From Butyrivibrio sp. (GTDB lineage Bacteria > Bacillota_A > Clostridia > Lachnospirales > Lachnospiraceae), in assembly GCF_024699075.1 (NCBI RefSeq), contig NZ_JAILQF010000071.1:1-9601 (forward strand): DNA of 9,601 nucleotides, read 5' to 3'. This document shows positions 1 to 9,601 of the stretch, in pieces. The translations under genes were made by a program, and so were the position numbers. The stretch's first letter is position 1. The number at the start of each line of letters is the position of its first letter. Below the pieces are notes generated by a model, which had not been told where the DNA came from, did no database searches, and saw only the letters and a program-made list of their open reading frames with translations.

Positions 1-618
1 TCTCCACTCATTGGCACCGTCGATCTTGGCAGCTTCAATAAGTGATGTAGGAAGACCTTCCATGAACTGCTTCATAAGGAAGAGTCCCATAGGTGATGCG
101 AACGCAGGAATTATGATTGCCCAATATGTATCAATCCATCCGAGCTTGTTCAGTATCAGGTAGTTAGGAATCTGTGTAACATAACCTGTGAACATCATCG
201 CAACTGTTATGATCTTGAAAAATGTCTGACCACCTGGGAAATCGTACTTAGCAAGTACGAAAGCTGCCATAGAAGCAATGATCAGATGTCCAAAGGTACC
301 TGCAAATGTTATCCATACTGTATTGAACAGGTATCTTGAAAATGTAACCCAGCTTTTACCCATTGTTACAAACAGATCCGAGAAGTTATCGAATGTCGGA
401 TTCTGAGGGAATATACGCGGAGGGAACTTAAAGAGTTCATCAAGAGGCTTTAAAGCACTGCTGACCGCATATATAATAGGGAAAGCCATTACTATTGCTA
501 CAAATAATAAAAACAGATATAAGAATATGTCGCCGATAATTGAGCGGTTAGGCTTCCTTCTCTTTACTAAGGGCTTACGATATTCTTTTTCTTTAACGAC
601 CTTTTCCTTTTTCTTCAT
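1..618 (-). CDS. Carbohydrate ABC transporter permease, MalG/UgpE type (3' end off window)
   Basis: This is the second inner-membrane permease of a CUT1-type sugar importer. The window holds 206 codons of a protein that is usually about 270-300 residues, so the C-terminal third is missing beyond base 1. The start ATG (618-616) follows the stop of the upstream permease by one base (TAA-A-ATG), so translation is probably coupled; the nearest purine-rich stretch, AGAAG, is distant. The N-terminus is a highly basic cytoplasmic tail (residues 1-26). It is followed by membrane segments at about 29-55, 100-123, 134-156 and 164-184. The family's EAA loop, which docks on the ATPase, begins at about residue 187: EGLPTSLIEAAKIDGANE, with the conserved Glu-Ala-Ala at 195-197 and Gly at 201. 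The family and role are clear. The sugar transported is inferred from the neighbouring GH115 and GH43 genes. Confidence 0.93.
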   Translation of the reverse strand, partial: MKKKEKVVKEKEYRKPLVKRRKPNRSIIGDIFLYLFLLFVAIVMAFPIIYAVSSALKPLDELFKFPPRIFPQNPTFDNFSDLFVTMGKSWVTFSRYLFNTVWITFAGTFGHLIIASMAAFVLAKYDFPGGQTFFKIITVAMMFTGYVTQIPNYLILNKLGWIDTYWAIIIPAFASPMGLFLMKQFMEGLPTSLIEAAKIDGANEWR

Positions 619-619
619 T

Positions 620-1573
620 TTACGTACCAACTCTTCTCAACAGATTTTGAATTAACTTGTTACAAAGGATCATCATAAGGAACAGAATTGTTGCTATAGC
701 ACATGCATAACCCATTTCAAATCTTACTGAACCATAGTCTATAAGGTGAGTAACGATTGTGCTGGCTGCATAGTCAGTACTTGGGTTACCACAAAGGGCA
801 ATTGTTACATCAGCTACGCCAAATGCCTGTGTGATACTCATAACTGCACCGAACATAAGCATTGGTTTCATGTTAGGAAGCGTGATATACCACAGCTCCT
901 GCCATCTGTTCTTTACACCATCCATGTAACCTGCTTCAAACTGTGCCTTATCGACACCCTGAAGACCTGCTACAAAGGAAAGGAAGCCTGTTCCCAAACT
1001 CATCCACAGAATAACCACCATACATATAGGAAGCATGTATGTCGGATTGATAAACCAAAGAATAGGTGTATCTATAATTCCGAGATTCATAAGTGCTGCG
1101 TTGACATATCCGTATGCATCACCTCTGAAGAATACTGAGAAGATAACATAACAGTTACCTGCAATTGATGGCGCATAGAATACGATTACCGCAATTGATC
1201 TGACCCATCTTGGAAGTTCGTTAATAAGCCATGCAAAAAGGAATGACATTATATAACCAAGAGGACCCGTTATAACCGCTATCATCAGCGTGTTCTTGAC
1301 ACTTGTAAGAAATACATCATCTTCAAGTATCAGTGATACATAGTTCTGCAATCCCAGAAACCTCGGTGGCTCCAAAATATTGTAGTAAGTAAAACTGTAA
1401 TAAATTGAAGCTACAACCGGATAGACAAAAAACATTGCGAAAAGAATTGCATATGGTGCAAGGAATGCGTAACACATTTTGGACATCTTGGCCTTTTTGA
1501 CCATTATTATGGCTTCACGCTTCCTCAGCTTAATATACTTACTGAAAAATTCTTTCATACCTTCTTCTCTCAT
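620..1573 (-). CDS. Carbohydrate ABC transporter permease, MalF/UgpA/LacF type
   Basis: This is the first inner-membrane permease of the sugar importer (317 residues, a normal length for the family). It has about six membrane segments, at roughly 34-60, 93-118, 126-148, 170-200, 238-258 and 285-308. The N-terminal block around residues 36-52 (AFLAPYAILFAMFFVYP) and the RFLGLQNY motif at 71-78 are typical of MalF/UgpA proteins. The EAA loop lies at about 204-237 and contains the variant EAGYMDG (213-219) followed by ITLP. The first ATG overlaps the stop of the binding-protein gene as ATGA (1570-1573), which suggests translational coupling. An in-frame ATG at 1558 (Met6) is preceded by an AGAGAAGAAGG purine tract and could be the real start; five residues are at stake. 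The gene pairs with the MalG-type permease one base downstream to form the channel. The substrate is inferred from context. Confidence 0.95.
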   Translation of the reverse strand: MREEGMKEFFSKYIKLRKREAIIMVKKAKMSKMCYAFLAPYAILFAMFFVYPVVASIYYSFTYYNILEPPRFLGLQNYVSLILEDDVFLTSVKNTLMIAVITGPLGYIMSFLFAWLINELPRWVRSIAVIVFYAPSIAGNCYVIFSVFFRGDAYGYVNAALMNLGIIDTPILWFINPTYMLPICMVVILWMSLGTGFLSFVAGLQGVDKAQFEAGYMDGVKNRWQELWYITLPNMKPMLMFGAVMSITQAFGVADVTIALCGNPSTDYAASTIVTHLIDYGSVRFEMGYACAIATILFLMMILCNKLIQNLLRRVGT

Positions 1574-4521
1574 TCCCCATAAATCGGCAAACCAAATTCT
1601 CGTCTCTTCTTGGTAATCTCATCATCAATCTTGATAGAGTAGTCAATTATGGTTTCTCGTGAATCTACCTTTTCGTTAAATACCTTTCGTATAGCGTTGG
1701 AAATATGTCTTCCTGTGTAATAACCACCAGGAACTTCTCTGATTCCAACTGTCTGATCCCACTGAGCATTTAATACTTCAATGTCATCTGAACTCCAGGA
1801 CAAATTAGCGAAAGCTTCTCTGTTAGCAGTTGCATATCTGGCTGATGCACCAAGAAGAGCCTCGATCTCTCGACCGAATGTTACCTGTGTTTCAGGCTGT
1901 GCCCACCACTTCATGAATTCCCATGAATTCTGGCGAAGGTTTTCATCTTCTGTCTTGATCATCATTGTTGCTGCGCCGGATATAAAGTCTGAACGATCTA
2001 TATAAGTAGTACCGTCTTCATTTTCACGAACTGTTCCAGGAATAAGAGTAAAGTCCCAAAGACCTCTTATTTCAGGTGCTGATACCATCAAAGTATTGTA
2101 TGTAGAATATGGAGCAATACCAATTGGCATCTCACCTGAACGGAATCTTGAAACAAAGTCATAAATTGTAGGTATACCATAATCATTGAAATACCTTACA
2201 TAATCATCAAAAGCTCTGATTCCTGCTTCATCGTCAACAGTAGTCTTGGTACCCTCTTCGTTATAAACATCTCCTCCATACTGGAAAAGAAGTGAGAAGT
2301 ACATAGACAGATCAGGCTGAGCTGACATGATCGATGTGGAAGCTGCTGCACTTGCAGATGAACCTGCTGCCGTAGGTATACCAACTGAAAGGTTGTTACC
2401 CTGAATAGTAGGAAGCTCTGATATAAGCTCATCCCATGTATTAGGAATAGGAAGACCAAGCTCTTCCATAACGTCTTTTCTGTAGAACATTACGTTAAAG
2501 GTCTGAGTTTCAGGAACACCGTAAATATGACCGTCAAGTGTATACTGTTCGTATGAACTTTCTGAATAATACTTAAGTACTTCCTGATAATCAGAGAACT
2601 GCGTAATATCTTCAGCTGCGCCACGAAGTGCGTAGTTTACAGGCTGATCAGCACCTATAGAAAGAACTACATTAGGTCCTCTTCCTGCAAGTACTGCATT
2701 AAGAAGTGCTCCCGCATCAACTATCTCAACGTTTACTTTGATTCCTGTGCTTGTAGTAAAATCTTCATCGATCATGGACTTAAGGATTGTTCCCTGATCT
2801 CTACCAGTAAGAACCCATACCTTAACTACATCTTCGCCATCTCCGTATACATCACCAACTGCGTTGTAATCAACAAAGAATGAAACAAAGAATGACTTGA
2901 TCTCATGTCCGATCTTGTCGAGAGCAGTTTCAGTATCCTTAACAGGTGATGTTCCTGATGCTGTAACTTCGATATAGTCAATATCAAGTCTTGTCATGCT
3001 AAGGTTAAGTGAAGCAGTACCAAGTGAAGTGATATTATCTTTAAATGTTGTAAACTCTGTAGTTATCTTATTAGGCTTTTCACAGAATCTTTCAAGCTGC
3101 TGGGCAACTGTCTGAGCTGTTGCAATTGAGTCAGCCTTCTGACCTGAATAGTCAACCATGTCATCAACTATCTTGTATAGTCTCTTTGACTCAAGATCCA
3201 TAGCTTCCATGATCTCAGGATAAGTAGTCTCTATATGATAGTCTCTGTACTGGTCAGGTGTTGCTCCCGTGTAAACAAGGATCTTACGATATATCTGATT
3301 CAATCTGTATGTAGAATCCTCGATCTCTTCGAGAATATTACCAAGTTCTCCAAGAGAAGCTTCAAGTCTTATTGTGTGAGTTCCCTTTGTAAGATAGAAA
3401 TTATAAGGATTACCATTTTCGTCAGATAAAGTTATAAGTGACCAGTTATTGGTATAAGGAAAAGAAATCTCTTCTACTTCTTTAAATGGTACCTCTCCAT
3501 CAATATACAGAGTTCTGTTTGATACATTACCTCTTGAATAGTTCTGTCTTCCTTTAACAGTGAGATTATAAAAGCCATCTTCTTCTACTGTTACGTCCCA
3601 TTCAATCCACTGTCCATTAGTTCTCCATGCTTCACCACCAACATAGTTAAGAACTGTATGCTTGAGTGACATAGGCTGAGTTGAGGGAGAGGATCTGTCA
3701 TACTTTGCATAAAGTGATGATTCTGATCTTCTGGATGAATCTTCACCCTGAACTATCTGTGTGTATCCTTCAGACTGATTAGAACTGTTATCTTTATTGG
3801 CCGCTGTATATTCTTCATATGTTGCAAGTTGATATACACTTGTGAACTTCAGGCTCTTTATCGCCATTGGTTCGTTGACCGCTTCGAGTGTTACTTCATT
3901 CTCACCTTTATTAAGGTAGAACTTGTATGGCTCTGATATGTAACCAAGCTTATCTTTGAAGTATGCACTCTGCCAGCAGTACTCTTCGATCTGCTTAGGT
4001 CTTATTTCATTGCCCTGGTTATCAATTCTCTTATCTCCGTCATCAACCCATACTCTGGAAAAAGAAATATTGATAGCATCATCGAACGGGAGTTCTCCGT
4101 TAATGTATACTGCTCTTTCAGCAGCAACACCTCTTGACTCGGGCAGATAATACTCAAGGTAAAGGTTGTAGAAGCCTTCCTCAGGAGCATTTACTTTGAA
4201 GGATACCTTTGAATCAAGTTCTGTATAAAGAACATTGCTTTCTCCTTCATAGTTTGCCTCAAACTTGACATCGCCTTCAGCTTCATATGATGAAAGGTCA
4301 ATATCAATATCCTGAGTTGAATCTTTGCTTCCCTCATGTTCTAAGAGATATCCGGTATAGCCACCCGTTCGCTCCATACCTTCAACATCCTTAGTAAGGT
4401 CCACCCCTTCGTACTTGTCCCTAAAGTTTTCGACCCTCTTTGTCAGAAACAATGCAGCGATGCCTATTACTGCCAGAACCGCTACAGCCCCGATTGCCAG
4501 GCCTTTCTTAATGCTTTTCAT
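1570..4521 (-). CDS. Large modular extracellular solute-binding protein with two CBM-like beta-sandwich repeats
   Basis: This is the sugar-capturing component of the ABC importer. It has about 983 residues, against 400-450 for an ordinary CUT1 binding protein. Order of parts, numbered from the chosen start: basic residues then one hydrophobic helix (7-27) ending in Lys-Arg; a beta-rich module at about 105-230; a related module at about 305-420; a largely helical linker at about 425-555; and a family-1 solute-binding domain at about 565-983 (VVKVWVLTGRDQG, the GHIYGVPETQTFNVMFYRKDV block near 664-684, and WEFMKWWAQPETQVTFGRE near 867-885). The two modules resemble CBM6/CBM35-like folds (weak call), so they may grip xylan or oligosaccharides outside the cell. 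The start at 4521 is chosen over the in-frame ATG at 4548 because AGGAG lies 8 bases before it and because 4548 falls at the predicted transcription start. There is no Cys lipobox, so the protein is probably held by an uncleaved N-terminal helix. The stop overlaps the permease start. Decorated xylo-oligosaccharides are the inferred ligand. Confidence 0.9.
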   Translation of the reverse strand: MKSIKKGLAIGAVAVLAVIGIAALFLTKRVENFRDKYEGVDLTKDVEGMERTGGYTGYLLEHEGSKDSTQDIDIDLSSYEAEGDVKFEANYEGESNVLYTELDSKVSFKVNAPEEGFYNLYLEYYLPESRGVAAERAVYINGELPFDDAINISFSRVWVDDGDKRIDNQGNEIRPKQIEEYCWQSAYFKDKLGYISEPYKFYLNKGENEVTLEAVNEPMAIKSLKFTSVYQLATYEEYTAANKDNSSNQSEGYTQIVQGEDSSRRSESSLYAKYDRSSPSTQPMSLKHTVLNYVGGEAWRTNGQWIEWDVTVEEDGFYNLTVKGRQNYSRGNVSNRTLYIDGEVPFKEVEEISFPYTNNWSLITLSDENGNPYNFYLTKGTHTIRLEASLGELGNILEEIEDSTYRLNQIYRKILVYTGATPDQYRDYHIETTYPEIMEAMDLESKRLYKIVDDMVDYSGQKADSIATAQTVAQQLERFCEKPNKITTEFTTFKDNITSLGTASLNLSMTRLDIDYIEVTASGTSPVKDTETALDKIGHEIKSFFVSFFVDYNAVGDVYGDGEDVVKVWVLTGRDQGTILKSMIDEDFTTSTGIKVNVEIVDAGALLNAVLAGRGPNVVLSIGADQPVNYALRGAAEDITQFSDYQEVLKYYSESSYEQYTLDGHIYGVPETQTFNVMFYRKDVMEELGLPIPNTWDELISELPTIQGNNLSVGIPTAAGSSASAAASTSIMSAQPDLSMYFSLLFQYGGDVYNEEGTKTTVDDEAGIRAFDDYVRYFNDYGIPTIYDFVSRFRSGEMPIGIAPYSTYNTLMVSAPEIRGLWDFTLIPGTVRENEDGTTYIDRSDFISGAATMMIKTEDENLRQNSWEFMKWWAQPETQVTFGREIEALLGASARYATANREAFANLSWSSDDIEVLNAQWDQTVGIREVPGGYYTGRHISNAIRKVFNEKVDSRETIIDYSIKIDDEITKKRREFGLPIYGE
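3262..4209 (-). repeat. Internal duplication: two related beta-sandwich modules within the binding protein
   Basis: Reading the translation, a first unit (about residues 105-230, bases 3832-4209) and a second (about 305-420, bases 3262-3609) share landmarks in the same order. These are APEEGFYNL against VEEDGFYNL, AVYINGELPFDDAINISF against TLYIDGEVPFKEVEEISF, and EPYKFYLNKGENEVTLEA against NPYNFYLTKGTHTIRLEA. The repeat is seen directly at protein level; the DNA has diverged. The pattern (GFYNL strand, short NGE/DGE turn, then an L-x-KG-x-x strand pair) is common in CBM6/CBM35-like jelly rolls, but the family is not proven. The first unit has an extra insertion of about 25-30 residues (near 160-190) with an Asp-rich start. 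Confidence 0.75.
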
Positions 4522-4554: not shown

Positions 4555-4583
4555 ATTATACGTTCAGACAGTTACTCAAACTT
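4555..4583 (-). promoter_or_regulatory. Promoter of the transporter genes (sigma-A type, poor -35)
   Basis: On the minus strand, a perfect -10 TATAAT (4560-4555) is preceded by a 17-bp spacer and the weak -35 AAGTTT (4583-4578). Transcription would start near 4548, giving a leader of about 27 bases that contains AGGAG. The -10, the spacer length and the -35 hexamer are the same as those of the promoter before the GH43 gene. The poor match of the -35 to TTGACA suggests that an activator is needed. Confidence 0.7.
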
Positions 4584-4618
4584 CCTATTTATTGCGACTA
4601 CCTTTTCACACATTGCTA
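4581..4618 (-). promoter_or_regulatory. Direct-repeat activator site (AraC-type geometry) before the transporter promoter
   Basis: There are two 17-bp half-sites in the same orientation, 21 bp apart start to start: TAGCAATGTGTGAAAAG (4618-4602) and TCGCAATAAATAGGAAG (4597-4581). The inner half-site overlaps the first bases of the -35. The same arrangement, to the base, is found at 9465-9502. Two half-sites about two helical turns apart, with the inner one touching a weak -35, is the known layout of AraC-family activator sites. The identity of the regulator is inferred and its gene is not in the window. Confidence 0.6.
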
Positions 4619-4642
4619 TCATTTGTTATCATCCACAATAGT

Positions 4643-4655
4643 GCTCAATTTGAGC
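4643..4655. repeat. Perfect 13-bp palindrome in the control region
   Basis: GCTCAAATTGAGC (minus-strand reading) is a perfect inverted repeat around a central base, about 100 bp upstream of the predicted transporter transcription start and 27 bp past the GH115 stop. It could be an operator. It is a poor terminator because the hairpin loop would be only about 3 bases and no T-run follows. Confidence 0.4.
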
Positions 4656-4681
4656 CGCAATCGTTTAGTCAATATGACAAG

Positions 4682-7600
4682 TTATCTGCCATCCGAAGCT
4701 ATAGGACCAAGAAATCCTTTGTGCCATTTGCTCTTAGAATGCTTAACAAGTATCCTTTCAATAACAATTCCGTCATCTGTAAGATCAACATCAAGTCTTC
4801 CAACTCCCTTATTACAGTGGAGTTTAAGGCTTTGTCTGTGCTCGCCTGCGAATATATCCTTGGACCAGTAGTAGTTGCTATTATCTCCGCCTACATATTT
4901 CTCATCGATAAGATTTAGCAAATATTGCTTTTCATCCCAGGTAATAGCAATTTTCAATGAATTGTCTTTAGTTACAGGATTGGAAGGAGCTATGATAAAG
5001 GTAAACTCATAATCACCCTCTTCTATAGTATTAATTAGGTAAGATATGTCATGAGACTTATCTTTTTCATCCTTAGTGCCAAGAGCTTTAAGTCCGCATG
5101 AATACTTGCCATAAGGACTTATGACTTTAAGTTCTCTTTCATTATCAGGGTTAAGCTTCTCATATTCAAAAGCTTCGATCGCAAGGCCTATAGAATCTCC
5201 GGTATTTACAGGAAGTCTTACTTCTTCAAATGCAGAAGGATGATCTTCTTTACTTATAAATGGAAGCCATTCATCAGGAATAACCGGAACAAGATGCTCT
5301 TTTTCAAGATCTTCATCTTTGTAACATGCTGCAAGAACCACAAGTGTTACTTTTTTATTGCCGGATGTCAAAAGAAGACTTCCCGCTACATAATAAGTAT
5401 TGTTTCTATATATAATGCCTGACTTCTTGTCAGCGCTTCCTGCATCATCTGAAGCTTTGTCTTTTACAAGACTCATAAGCTTTTCTCTGTCTATTGTTAC
5501 AGTGATCTCTTTTTCGCTTATCTTTTCATCAGCCTGTTCAAATGGAGGAAGCTTTCCGCACAACAAGTCAACGCTTATCCATTCTTCACTTGTCTCTATC
5601 TTCCATTCAAGTTCTTCATTTCCTCCATTTTCTATAAGGAAGGTCTGCGTATTAACTAAAGGCTTGATGAATTCATATAAGAAGAGATTCTTTCTGGTCC
5701 AGTCGCCTCCCATTGAATACTCACCTGTAAGAGGTACTGTTACTACCATTCTGTGTTTATTGGCAGGCCATATATATGATCTTGAAGGATACATATTCTC
5801 TTCTTCATTCCAGTATCTAAAACCTGTATGAGCAGAAAGCATCATTCCGTCCCATTTACCGCTTTCTATAGAATGGTAGGTGCTGATCAGATTTTTCTCT
5901 ATTCTGTAGCACTTCTCGATTTCTTCTGCATAGAAGTTAGCTATTACTCTTCCCCTGTCAGCGCATGCCTTGTTCTTGCCGGCTGCTATCATCATTTCAT
6001 AATGATTAGCAATGATCTTTGAAGGGAATATAACAAGTTCAAATAAAGCTGAATCTATTTCCTTAAGTCTCTTACCAAGGACGTACATCTCAAGTTCGTC
6101 GCATTTATGTTTTATCTCCTCTACTTTCTTATATATATGATCAGCTTCGCCGTAATTAAAGCTGTGAAGTGTAGAAGGATAAAGGCTTTCAGGCTTTCTG
6201 ATACTGCTAAGATATGTATACTGGTCAAGAAGCTCTATTACCGTATTCTGCTCTTTGTCTTCAAGGAAGCCTTCAAACTGCTGAGCTGTCCAGTATTTAA
6301 GAAATCTCTGGTAAGGTTTCTCAGAATGAACGCTCCACTTCTCATAGTCATAAGCAAGTTCGAAGAAATATGAGATCGGGAATTCCTGAGGTTTAAGATC
6401 TCCAACATTAACAATCCAAATATCTCTTACTCCCTTGTCATAAGCTTCGCTCATCTGCTCACATACTTTTGGTATATATGTACTGTTAACCCATTCATAT
6501 GAAACAGGATCACCATGATAGTCAAAATGGTAGTACATACCGAATCCACCGTTGTGAGTCTCACCGTTTTCGGGAAGTCTTCTCATATTGCCCTGATTGT
6601 CTTCGCACAGCATAAGTGTTATGCCGTCAAGACCATCCCAGCTTCTAAGTCCCTCAGTAGTCTCATCTCCAAAGTAGTACTTCTCAACTTCCTTATATAT
6701 AGCAAGCATCATAGGAACTTCATCAGCATTATCACCATATACTTCTTTGATAAGATTTCTTTGTGTTAGTATAACTTCCTTAAGATAATCAATATTCTCT
6801 TTAAGGGTCGCTTCTCTTCCTAAAACCTCGCTATCTCTTTCTCCTCTCATACCAACAGTTATGATATTTTCAAAAGGAGCATTTCTCTTAAGTCCGTCTC
6901 TCCAGTAATTAGTAAGACCTTCCTTGTTCTTGTCAAAGTTCCAGGCATTGCCGTACTTGGAATCTTCGCCTCTTACAAGGTCCCACTCTTCACTATGTCT
7001 TGAACAAGGCTCATGATGGGAATTACTCATTACTATTCCAAGTTCATCTGCTAGTTCAGCGCTCAAAAGGCCAGGTCCATCAAGTGAGAAATTAGATGTC
7101 CACATGGCAGGCCAGAGGTAGTTACCTTTAAGTCTTAAGATAAGCTCAAAGACATTTTCATACATTTTTGCAGTAAATCCGCCGTAATGCTTCATAGTCC
7201 AGTTACCAAAAGAAGGCCATTCATCATTTATAAAAAGACCTCTGTACTTTACTGAAGGTTCTCTGGAAATAAAAGCATCCTCATCTGTCATAAGAAGCTC
7301 TTCTTTCTTTGCAGGTCTTACATCAGCAAAGTTAACCCAGGGCGATACGCCAAGAAGTTCAGACAAATGGAAAAGGCCGTATATTGTACCCCTTTTATCA
7401 CTTCCTATGATCACAAGCCTTATTTCATCACTGCCTGGAGCCTTCTTAAAAAGAAATGCATATGCTTCTCTTCTTTTTTTCAGCGTATCCTCTTCTTCAC
7501 TGCTCAAAGGAAGATCAGTTGATACTCCAAGAGTTCCGACAAATATACTTTTTATATAATTTGTACCGTTATCAGTATTATCTTTAGAGCTGTCTCCGAT

Positions 7601-7762
7601 ATCAGAATATGTCATGACTTTAGTAAACTCAGAAGTAATCCCCAGAACTTTATTGACATCTTCTGAAACCTTGTTCATGACTTTCTTAACACCGCTAAGA
7701 GTTCCTTTGGGATAAAAGAATATCAGGCTTTTTTGGTTATCGATTTTATAGTTCATATTCAT
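4682..7762 (-). CDS. Glycoside hydrolase family 115, xylan alpha-1,2-glucuronidase (cytoplasmic)
   Basis: The enzyme removes glucuronic acid or 4-O-methyl-glucuronic acid from xylan or xylo-oligosaccharides. It has 1026 residues. The family signature runs through the centre: YRGLFINDEWPSFGNW (173-188), FELILRLKGNYLWPAMW (205-221), SNSHHEP (246-252), GMRGERD (304-310), EDNQGNMRRLP (387-397), GMYYHFDYHGDP (408-419) and VNVGDLKPQE (451-460). These belong to the catalytic barrel and sugar-binding surface of GH115. An alpha/beta N-terminal domain (1-165) precedes it; a helical section (about 480-650) and beta-rich C-terminal domains (about 690-1026) follow, as in characterised members. There is no signal peptide or membrane helix, so it is expected to act on imported substrate. 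AGGAG (7770-7766) is only 3 bases before the first ATG but 9 before Met3 (7756), so Met3 may be the true start. The gene begins 21 bp after the GH43 stop and is probably co-transcribed with it. Confidence 0.93.
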   Translation of the reverse strand: MNMNYKIDNQKSLIFFYPKGTLSGVKKVMNKVSEDVNKVLGITSEFTKVMTYSDIGDSSKDNTDNGTNYIKSIFVGTLGVSTDLPLSSEEEDTLKKRREAYAFLFKKAPGSDEIRLVIIGSDKRGTIYGLFHLSELLGVSPWVNFADVRPAKKEELLMTDEDAFISREPSVKYRGLFINDEWPSFGNWTMKHYGGFTAKMYENVFELILRLKGNYLWPAMWTSNFSLDGPGLLSAELADELGIVMSNSHHEPCSRHSEEWDLVRGEDSKYGNAWNFDKNKEGLTNYWRDGLKRNAPFENIITVGMRGERDSEVLGREATLKENIDYLKEVILTQRNLIKEVYGDNADEVPMMLAIYKEVEKYYFGDETTEGLRSWDGLDGITLMLCEDNQGNMRRLPENGETHNGGFGMYYHFDYHGDPVSYEWVNSTYIPKVCEQMSEAYDKGVRDIWIVNVGDLKPQEFPISYFFELAYDYEKWSVHSEKPYQRFLKYWTAQQFEGFLEDKEQNTVIELLDQYTYLSSIRKPESLYPSTLHSFNYGEADHIYKKVEEIKHKCDELEMYVLGKRLKEIDSALFELVIFPSKIIANHYEMMIAAGKNKACADRGRVIANFYAEEIEKCYRIEKNLISTYHSIESGKWDGMMLSAHTGFRYWNEEENMYPSRSYIWPANKHRMVVTVPLTGEYSMGGDWTRKNLFLYEFIKPLVNTQTFLIENGGNEELEWKIETSEEWISVDLLCGKLPPFEQADEKISEKEITVTIDREKLMSLVKDKASDDAGSADKKSGIIYRNNTYYVAGSLLLTSGNKKVTLVVLAACYKDEDLEKEHLVPVIPDEWLPFISKEDHPSAFEEVRLPVNTGDSIGLAIEAFEYEKLNPDNERELKVISPYGKYSCGLKALGTKDEKDKSHDISYLINTIEEGDYEFTFIIAPSNPVTKDNSLKIAITWDEKQYLLNLIDEKYVGGDNSNYYWSKDIFAGEHRQSLKLHCNKGVGRLDVDLTDDGIVIERILVKHSKSKWHKGFLGPIASDGR

Positions 7763-7783: not shown

Positions 7784-9343
7784 TCACGCTTCATATTTAA
7801 AGTTTGTAAACACAGCCTCATTATCAAGATCCTTGCCTGTATTATCAAAAGCAAACATTCCTACAGTACAGCCTACAAAGCCGCCGGCAATTTCTGTTGA
7901 AAGAGCTCTGATATCCGCTTCATCAAATACTGTTTCCTTACCACCTATGAATGCGGAAGCCTTTGCAATTAATCCATTTACTTCAATTTTGAGAGTAACA
8001 GATACTTCATTTGAATCAGCAGTAACAAGATCCATAACATTCACAGATCCAAGCACCTTGTCCTTTTTGTCCTGTCTTAGTACAGCGCAGACTTCTTTGC
8101 CCTTAAGTAAAAGTCTTAATGAAAAGCTTTCATTCTGCATAAGGACAAGTCCCTTTGTAACTGCCTCATCATATATATTGTGGCAAACAGATACGCTTGC
8201 TTTAAATGCATGATCCTGAACTCTAAGACCAAGATATGAAGGGTTTGATTCTTCTGTTATAGGAAGCTTTGAAGCTTTCATTGCAAGGCCTTTTTGTGTA
8301 AGTTCATATCTATCCTGCTGCTCGTTTCTAAGTGTCAGAAACTCAGGTCCTATCTTATTCATAGAAGTAAAGTCGTAATCTTTAGAAGCTTTTACATCAT
8401 CATCCCACAAGACCTCTTCAAGACCTGTATCAACTATGCTTGTAAGCTTTGCTACTCCCGGATTTACAACGGGCCAGCCATTTTCCCAGATAACCTTTGC
8501 AAGAAATGTCTCTCTTCCTATTGTTGTAAAGCCTTCCGTGCGCCTTACTCCCAGCATTACCATAAACCATTCACCAGCTGGCGTTTCCACAAGATCTGCA
8601 TGTCCTACGTACTGCACCGGATACTGACTTCCCATATCTCTGTGAGTAATGATGGGATTATTCATATTGTTCTCATAAGGTCCGAAAAGAGATTTACTCC
8701 TGCAGACAGCTTCGCAGTGATTAGGTCCAGTTCCGCCCTCTGCATGCATGATGTAATAATAATCATCCTTTTTGTAAAGGTGAGGTCCCTCAGGCCAGAT
8801 GATATTTCTCATTGAACCATTCCAAACATTGACTTTCTCTCCGCAGAACTGGAAAGTCTTACTGTCAAGCTCTCCTATGTATATGTAATAGTCTCCGCTA
8901 TACTTCTCTCCCTCAGGATTGGGATGAGTTCCGATATAATAGCATTTTCCATCATCGTCAAAGAAAATACTGGGATCAATTCCGTCAGCTCCCTTGATGT
9001 AGACAGGCTCTGACCACGGTCCATTAATATCATCTGCTGTAACTATGAAGTTACCGCCCTTTGTGATATTGGTGCATACAACATAAAATTTGCCCTCATG
9101 GTATCTGATAGTCGGTGCGAACAGCCCCTGAGAAAGCCCTGTTCCATCAAGCGGAAGTGACTTGTCATTACAAAGGACATTGCCTATCTGATGCCAGTTA
9201 GCAAGATCTTTACTATGCATGATTGGAAGTCCCGGAAAATAAGCAAAAGATGAATTAAGAATGTAATAGTCATCATTTGCCCTGACAATAGATGGATCAG
9301 GATAGAAGCCCGAAAGAATCGGGTTTGTAGCAACTGCTTTCAT
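7784..9343 (-). CDS. Glycoside hydrolase family 43 beta-xylosidase / alpha-L-arabinofuranosidase (XynB-like, cytoplasmic)
   Basis: This 519-residue inverting exo-glycosidase releases xylose or arabinose from short xylan fragments. The N-terminal five-bladed propeller (about 5-310) opens with NPILSGFYPDPSIV and FPGLPIMHSKDLANW (36-50), a pattern of the GH43 subfamily 11/12 XynB group. Three expected catalytic acids are visible: Asp16 (YPDPS, general base), Asp123 (GIDPS, pKa modulator) and Glu185 (WPEGPH, general acid). A C-terminal beta-sandwich (about 318-519) of the XynB/DUF1349 type starts near DFTSMNKIGPEFLTLRN and normally closes the active-site pocket. There is no signal peptide, so it should act in the cytoplasm. 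It is the first gene of the cluster in this window, with AGAGAGG placed 8 bases before ATG 9343. Sequence alone does not separate xylosidase from arabinofuranosidase activity, and many members have both. Confidence 0.92.
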   Translation of the reverse strand: MKAVATNPILSGFYPDPSIVRANDDYYILNSSFAYFPGLPIMHSKDLANWHQIGNVLCNDKSLPLDGTGLSQGLFAPTIRYHEGKFYVVCTNITKGGNFIVTADDINGPWSEPVYIKGADGIDPSIFFDDDGKCYYIGTHPNPEGEKYSGDYYIYIGELDSKTFQFCGEKVNVWNGSMRNIIWPEGPHLYKKDDYYYIMHAEGGTGPNHCEAVCRSKSLFGPYENNMNNPIITHRDMGSQYPVQYVGHADLVETPAGEWFMVMLGVRRTEGFTTIGRETFLAKVIWENGWPVVNPGVAKLTSIVDTGLEEVLWDDDVKASKDYDFTSMNKIGPEFLTLRNEQQDRYELTQKGLAMKASKLPITEESNPSYLGLRVQDHAFKASVSVCHNIYDEAVTKGLVLMQNESFSLRLLLKGKEVCAVLRQDKKDKVLGSVNVMDLVTADSNEVSVTLKIEVNGLIAKASAFIGGKETVFDEADIRALSTEIAGGFVGCTVGMFAFDNTGKDLDNEAVFTNFKYEA

Positions 9344-9357: not shown

Positions 9358-9381
9358 TGTAAAAATAAATAGATCATTTAG

Positions 9382-9398
9382 CTTATCAATTATTGCTA
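9382..9398 (-). promoter_or_regulatory. Extra activator half-site in the GH43 5' leader
   Basis: TAGCAATAATTGATAAG (minus strand) matches every position of the half-site consensus GCAAT-N3-TG-N2-AAG drawn from the four promoter half-sites. It lies about 35-50 bases downstream of the predicted transcription start and has no partner 21 bp away. It may be an auxiliary or repressing site, or chance. Confidence 0.35.
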
Positions 9399-9438: not shown

Positions 9439-9467
9439 ATTATAAGTATTGTCATACTACGAAACTT
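9439..9467 (-). promoter_or_regulatory. Promoter of the GH43-GH115 unit (sigma-A type, poor -35)
   Basis: On the minus strand, a perfect -10 TATAAT (9444-9439) follows a 17-bp spacer and the weak -35 AAGTTT (9467-9462). Transcription would begin near 9432, leaving a leader of about 88 bases. The hexamers and spacer length are the same as in the transporter promoter at 4555-4583. Confidence 0.7.
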
Positions 9468-9502
9468 GCCAGATATTGCGCACTCGTATTCAGAATTTGC
9501 TT
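9465..9502 (-). promoter_or_regulatory. Direct-repeat activator site (AraC-type geometry) before the GH43 promoter
   Basis: The half-sites AAGCAAATTCTGAATAC (9502-9486) and GCGCAATATCTGGCAAG (9481-9465) lie in the same orientation, 21 bp apart, with the inner one overlapping the -35. Spacing from CGCAAT to the -35 hexamer is 13 bp start to start, exactly as in front of the binding-protein gene. This is a candidate site for the same activator; the regulator is not in the window. Confidence 0.6.
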
Positions 9503-9601
9503 ACTTTAAATAGCAATAATTTTGTTGTTTTATCGATCCAAAAGTGTCATATTTTTTCTTATAAAATACAATAATTTTTCATGTATTTTTTTTAAATCTC
9601 A
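9503..9601. other. AT-rich stretch at the right edge, no gene seen
   Basis: This is very AT-rich sequence upstream of the GH43 promoter with no credible coding frame. It holds TAGCAATAAT on the plus strand (9511-9520), an inverted copy of the first ten bases of the leader half-site. It also has a weak AT-only hairpin, AAAATACA/TGTATTTT (9563-9570 with 9582-9589), followed by a few more T on the plus strand. The hairpin could end a plus-strand transcript, but no plus-strand gene precedes it here. The next gene lies beyond the window. Confidence 0.4.

Follow-up and report, generated by a model that had tools for sequence, protein, structure and literature searches.

All five genes of the window, by which we mean the whole 9,601-nucleotide stretch of Butyrivibrio sp. 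DNA that was analysed, lie on the minus strand:

7784..9343, minus strand: GH43 gene with a GH43_C2 domain, first gene of unit 1
4682..7762, minus strand: GH115 gene, 21 bp after GH43
1570..4521, minus strand: gene for the solute-binding protein (SBP) of a sugar ABC importer, first gene of unit 2
620..1573, minus strand: ABC permease gene
1..630, minus strand: another ABC permease gene, truncated where the window ends, with a Pfam match under the cut-off

GH115 is the α-glucuronidase family; the closest relatives of the present member are found at 77% identity in an uncultured Butyrivibrio (contig L001, genome G001) and at 65% in another Butyrivibrio (L002, G002). The SBP has a long N-terminal extension and would measure 992 aa if counted from 4548, but the start at 4521 is preferred as the likelier one, with AGGAGA directly upstream and kept in four of four species. 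The end of GH115 and the SBP start are 160 bp apart. As a simple scan of the interval between GH115 and the promoter before SBP (P1) found no terminator, P1 may be an internal promoter that boosts importer expression rather than the head of a wholly separate unit. By eye, a short GCTC...GAGC hairpin can be made out in this interval (4618-4681); it is not followed by a T run, and no intrinsic terminator is evident. In the relative, contig L001 continues past the permeases (9240-14024) with genes for an NHL-repeat protein, a Yip1-domain protein and a DUF5696 protein of 869 aa.

The promoters of the two units, P2 before GH43 and P1 before SBP, both read AGCAA[AT]-N15-CGCAAT-N7-AAGTTT-N17-TATAAT on the minus strand (9501-9439 and 4617-4555). 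A preliminary description of this DNA had called the spacing of their elements identical base for base, and all the elements can be read off the window: P2 has AGCAAA at 9501-9496, CGCAAT at 9480-9475, AAGTTT at 9467-9462 and, after a 17-bp spacer, TATAAT at 9444-9439, and P1 has AGCAAT at 4617-4612, CGCAAT at 4596-4591, AAGTTT at 4583-4578 and, after a 17-bp spacer, TATAAT at 4560-4555. The distances of 13 and 21 bp given there for the boxes are right as start-to-start distances, and a recount returned the same 5 of 17 identical spacer positions. Written as putative half-sites of 17 bp with the form GCAA-N7-nAAGT, the layout becomes:

9485..9501, minus strand: P2 outer half-site AGCAAATTCTGAATACG, with 17 of 17 columns identical in four aligned species
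9464..9480, minus strand: P2 inner half-site CGCAATATCTGGCAAGT, overlapping the -35 position; half-site score 20.2
9462..9467, minus strand: P2 hexamer AAGTTT in the -35 position, a non-consensus -35; AAGTTA in G302
9439..9444, minus strand: P2 -10 element TATAAT, invariant in four of four
4601..4617, minus strand: P1 outer half-site, SBP promoter
4580..4596, minus strand: P1 inner half-site CGCAATAAATAGGAAGT, overlapping the -35 position
4555..4560, minus strand: P1 -10 element TATAAT, invariant in four of four

In both promoters the half-sites are direct repeats 21 bp apart, and the distance from the core G of the inner one to the -10 is 35 bp. The -10 itself is perfect in P1 and P2; other members of the operator set more often have a TG-extended -10. 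The hexamer AAGTTT is present where it had been reported, but its reading as a -35 did not hold. Because it matches TTGACA at only one of six letters, and because AAGT alone is kept across the wider site set while the last two letters of the hexamer vary, we regard it as operator sequence: AAGTTT closes the inner half-site, whose end falls in the -35 position, and there is no real -35. A sigma-70 promoter with a consensus -35 was rejected, no TTGACA-like hexamer being found 16-18 bp before the -10, where AAGTTT stands instead; a sigma-70 consensus scan of the window missed both P1 and P2.

When the two intergenic regions are compared without gaps, no 63-mer pairing does better than the P1/P2 register, which agrees at 38 of 63 positions; paired dinucleotide shuffling attained this value 8 times in 5000. 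The register is thus unlikely to be accidental. Summed identical runs of at least five (24 bases) were attained in 2 of 2000 shuffles. This evidence from the window alone is suggestive, not overwhelming, and it is the comparison between species that makes it firm. When four species are aligned, invariant columns make up 35 of 37 in the P2 operator and 6 of 6 in its -10 but 3 of 17 in its spacer; the contrast between operator and spacer is weaker at P1, with 31 of 37, 6 of 6 and 8 of 17, respectively. Since the operator is conserved while the P2 spacer has been randomised, the shared parts look selected and not left over from a recent duplication, as had been proposed from the window.

Both sites recur in three relatives. 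In G301 and G302 they come in the order of the window, with SBP and GH43 behind them, and in G001 they lie on two contigs, with SBP behind P1 on L001 and the start of GH43 behind P2 on L087; G002 has a site of the same kind before GH115, facing an AraC gene. L087, a public MAG contig, opens with what is apparently Illumina adapter sequence (1-46), and this may explain the break of the locus there. The suspicion that a regulator gene would be met just outside the window is borne out in the relatives: in G001, G301 and G302 a divergent AraC/cupin gene adjoins the GH43 site, and by Pfam the AraC proteins of these three genomes and of G002 contain AraC_binding or cupin and HTH domains. The distance from the outer box to the start of the gene is 162-183 bp in G001, G301 and G302, and 226 bp in G002; on the strength of the former spacing, the predicted AraC gene of the window organism should start 60-85 bp past base 9601. 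On L087 the GH43 start and the site are followed by the divergent AraC gene 170 bp on and, beyond it on the other strand, by genes for a further SBP, a YesN-type response regulator with an AraC-type HTH, a YesM-type histidine kinase, a GH43 and a GDSL-GH10, the YesN/YesM pair starting 1.7 kb past the GH43 site. At 72-100% identity, this AraC is present in 4 of 79 genus genomes. All six zero-mismatch places of the composite pattern in the 79 genomes fall in these four, and there are two one-mismatch places, P2 of G302 and one in G331.

With three mismatches allowed, the composite pattern gave 87 places in 44 of the 79 genomes, compared with 16 for the reversed pattern (hand-summed). The 24 sites left after thinning have features that are absent from the query, namely T at position 29 (24 of 24), A at position 13 (21 of 24) and G at position 30 (20 of 24); before the -10 they have T and G in 23 and 20 cases. 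Once the pattern had been sharpened, there were 90 places in 43 of 79 genus genomes and 2 for the reversed control (hand-summed), and at the family level 15 places in 13 of 299 genomes and none reversed. Some operator places look coding and are hence likely to be chance matches; such coding-looking matrix matches are found, for instance, on L087 at 19919, L056 and L217.

Thirty genes, picked by hand from those behind the 132 distinct operator places, were scanned with Pfam. Eight encode GH10, seven GH43, three CBM6 without a catalytic match, three SBP, and one each a carboxylesterase, a permease, an FGGY kinase, GH3 and GDSL, so that all 26 genes with a Pfam match belong to the breakdown, binding, phosphorylation or transport of sugar polymers; four of the 30, pieces of 56, 463, 114 and 76 aa, had no match. 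At the L002 locus the sole place of at least 14 bits stands before GH115, and the controlled gene set therefore differs between species. In six genomes (G303, G304, G322, G348, G349 and G368) the operator precedes one same kind of gene, which is CBM6 by Pfam in G303 and was assigned by N-terminal likeness in the other five. In these six the 3.8-kb locus of the closest AraC homologue has no site, and a second AraC with a site is found only in G304 and G349 (13.5 and 21.6 bits). Elsewhere, in G146, another Lachnospiraceae genome, an AraC gene is separated from a 970-aa frame resembling the SBP of the window by three tandem half-sites instead of two (L034:13998 and L096). A separate AraC clade (L094, L250 and L263 of G001, G302 and G301) has a conserved upstream variant, GCAAGAATTG and, 21 bp on, ACAAAAACTG, perhaps this operator in a form that has drifted.

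The association of the operator with AraC homologues was scored with a matrix 38 bp long, whose 24 training sites all lay outside the scored AraC upstream regions: L129 and L169 were dropped, 34 sites were then thinned to 24 at 80% identity, and the near-copies L137 and L138 among the training sites lie ~1.6 kb from an AraC gene, outside the scored regions. The site threshold was 12 bits, and the upstream lengths were 400 bp for 36 homologues, 600 bp for 40 further ones and 700 bp for controls. Within the window the two promoters score 32.1 and 30.0 bits and the third-best place -1.8; these two scores are not independent, because the training sites had been found with a pattern derived from P1 and P2, while the scores at AraC genes are independent of that pattern. 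Of the 36 AraC homologues, 32 have a site of at least 12 bits upstream, in every case on the divergent strand, and 1 of 1800 shuffles reaches 12. The further homologues have it in 21 of 40 cases (16 divergent, 5 on the AraC strand), by falling identity in 5 of 5, 13 of 16 and 3 of 19; no site was found upstream of L097 and L098, at 44-48% identity, or of 16 of the 19 homologues in the 31-36% identity group. This brings the total to 53 of 76 AraC homologues, which range from 27 to 100% identity and are in many cases closely related to each other. Among 20 lower-scoring AraC-family genes of G001 and G002, none had a site of at least 12 bits. In a matrix-free check, 43 of 57 non-redundant regions upstream of AraC homologues contained GCAA-GCAA at 21 bp, with 9 for the next commonest GCAA spacing, a mean of 3.6 for the others, and 2 of 20 for controls.

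What do these observations suggest about the control of the locus? Because P1 and P2 share a paired site that also stands at xylan and AraC genes elsewhere, one sugar-sensing regulator probably co-activates the enzymes and the importer. We consider it probable that P1 and P2 are activator-dependent promoters under an AraC/cupin regulator, which would jointly switch GH43-GH115 and the importer within a genus-wide xylan regulon. This regulator, predicted to be encoded divergently from GH43 just past base 9601, would bind as a dimer to the two direct-repeat 17-bp half-sites, 21 bp apart, and from the inner one, in the -35 position, would contact RNA polymerase and recruit it to a good -10 that has no real -35. 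The likely signal is a xylan-derived ligand in the cupin domain, upon which GH43-GH115 and the ABC importer would be switched on together. The locus would then be a single local instance of a xylan regulon that extends throughout Butyrivibrio under several like regulators. Less easily reconciled with this scheme are the six genomes whose CBM6-type gene has the operator while their closest AraC homologue is without one, and the homologues that lack a site (L097, L098 and 16 of the 19 in the 31-36% group).

It appears improbable that P1 and P2 are activated instead by a YesN-type response regulator of the locus, together with a YesM kinase. A response regulator with an AraC-type HTH and a histidine kinase are indeed encoded near the AraC gene in G001 and L002, and two-component control of xylan genes exists elsewhere, in the form of XydS/R in C. 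cellulolyticum (parts of PMC3572039). However, in 16 regions (100.8 kb) of long AraC-domain proteins no place reaches 12 bits. Of the 15 that were checked by Pfam, eight have a receiver domain, six are without one and one is of another kind, resembling isopropylmalate synthase but with an AraC HTH; none of the eight confirmed receiver-domain regions attains the threshold, the best place, at 11.7 bits, being in a YesN-type region. Nor is there a site at the YesN-side genes of L087, and the site goes with stand-alone AraC homologues. Because the operator occurs with AraC homologues but not with the YesN-type genes that were tested, AraC is our preferred candidate of the two. As an observation apart, a 676-aa frame of G002 (L298:3344-5374, minus strand) encodes an alpha-isopropylmalate synthase (HMGL-like, LeuA_dimer) that ends in an AraC-type HTH_18 domain, an unusual fusion if it is no assembly error.

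Slightly less probable still is an arrangement in which P1 and P2 answer two paralogous AraC regulators that share a site type and act in parallel, without coordination. While AraC homologues do coexist, three each in G001, G301 and G302 at E<=1e-42, some of them with closely similar sites, P1 and P2 belong to a single locus that has one AraC gene beside it, and zero-mismatch places track the AraC clade of 72-100% identity. That the likeness of P1 and P2 is due to chance or is the remnant of a duplication is hardly credible: the significance within a single window is only ~1 to 2 in 1000, but the comparison contradicts this explanation, with an operator conserved between species next to a randomised P2 spacer, as do the 90 genus-wide places of the sharpened pattern against 2 reversed.

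Beyond the pair of half-sites on which control by one AraC/cupin regulator would rest, the window contains two further ones:

9381..9397, minus strand: third half-site AGCAATAATTGATAAGC in the GH43 5' leader, score 19.2, 104 bp downstream of the outer half-site start
9512..9527, plus strand: inverted half-site directed towards the predicted AraC gene; weak, with a score of 6.4 both here and in G301

The leader half-site, at +103, scores 15.1 in G001, 13.5 in G301 and 16.7 in G302 and is absent in G002; the inverted one is seen by eye in three of four alignment rows. Among 33 AraC-adjacent places, many of them closely related, 15 have a half-site in the same direction at +88/89 and 7 have one at +103/104; inverted half-sites stand at -120 in 15 and at -98/-99 in 8. 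A set of 33 promoters lying apart from AraC genes was searched within 200 bp at score 8, the AraC-adjacent search having used score 6 and a wider range, and there no extra half-site stands at one spot in more than three. Because extra half-sites thus recur at AraC-adjacent promoters and hardly elsewhere, the half-site in the leader of GH43 probably has a part in repression or autoregulation, with ara-like looping as a conceivable means. As to the latter, which we infer, the spacings of the extra half-sites match no single whole number of helical turns.

The regulators themselves differ in a residue of HTH1. In a first sample of 74 rows, which are non-independent and leave out L095 and the controls, a site accompanied 0 of 16 E-type regulators versus 52 of 58 non-E ones (S, T or A with site; Fisher 1.1e-11). 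The E rows form two separate clades, of 13 and 3, in a tree that carried long-branch warnings and from which L253 and four control proteins were too short to enter (5 of 20 controls left out). E-type upstream regions contain GCAA-21-GCAA in 3 of 11 non-redundant cases. As a rule for the site, the residue was weakened by further genes: two of seven additional E-type genes (L319, L321, L324 to L328) have a site, L326 at 13.5 and L327 at 21.6 bits, and six distant S-type genes (L329 to L334) have none in their locus. A more general scheme can be proposed tentatively, although we think it rather unlikely to hold in full: a Lachnospiraceae AraC/cupin group would keep one half-site code and a rigid grammar (two half-sites at 0/+21, another in the leader at +88/89 or +103/104, an inverted one at -120 or -98/-99), with ara-like looping to a partner downstream of the start and the HTH1 residue, S/T versus E, helping to decide which regulators keep the code.

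Butyrivibrio are important xylan degraders of the rumen. With an operator, a regulator group and a target list at hand, their xylan response becomes directly testable. Xylan regulons would become readable from genome or metagenome sequence, and many so far unassigned regulators may find a place in such a regulon.

Activators of the AraC type that use tandem half-sites are already known as a kind; this operator and regulon are apparently undescribed in the open-licence literature, our search of open-licence papers having found no description of this operator or of a Butyrivibrio xylan regulon. The genome paper on B. proteoclasticus, in the portions available to us, counts 17 AraC-family regulators and lacks the term 'promoter' (PMC2914790). 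Similar genes and regulators make up the Roseburia gpPUL Ros-5 (GH43, GH115, ABC, HK, RR, LacI and AraC), in whose paper the terms 'binding site' and 'promoter' are absent from the main text (PMC5320581). Shared operators for xylan enzymes and importers are described in parts of a study of Caldicellulosiruptor XynR, XylR, BxgRS and AxuRS, the BxgRS sites being tandem repeats at a glucuronoxylan cluster (PMC8579813). Those regulators differ from the AraC considered here, and they are likened to it by description, not by sequence.

The layout of P1 and P2 resembles that of araBAD, which also has direct-repeat half-sites 21 bp apart, the same 35 bp from core G to -10 and an inner half-site that overlaps the -35 position, its elements being labelled I1, I2, -35 and -10. 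As in AraC, the adjacent regulator of the relatives has a cupin/AraC-binding domain, and the ara system too has extra half-sites beyond the pair. In contrast to araBAD, with its TAGC-N7-..., the half-site is GCAA-N7-nAAGT, the third half-site lies downstream, in the leader, and the ligand is presumably derived from xylan. The DNA-binding domain, moreover, scores higher against SoxS, RamA and Rob, its nearest solved relatives by sequence, than against AraC. Published half-sites are GCAC-N7-CAA for Rob, GCAC-N7-TAAA for SoxS and TAGC-N7-ACCTGA for AraC (parts of PMC4514859), and the present half-site shares its form with those of Rob and AraC; in sequence it is like those of Rob and SoxS, as is the HTH1 helix (SK-x-H-x-x-R versus SKW-x-x-x-R). 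Rob and SoxS, however, act as monomers according to the same source (PMC4514859), whereas here two tandem half-sites are combined with a regulator that has a cupin domain.
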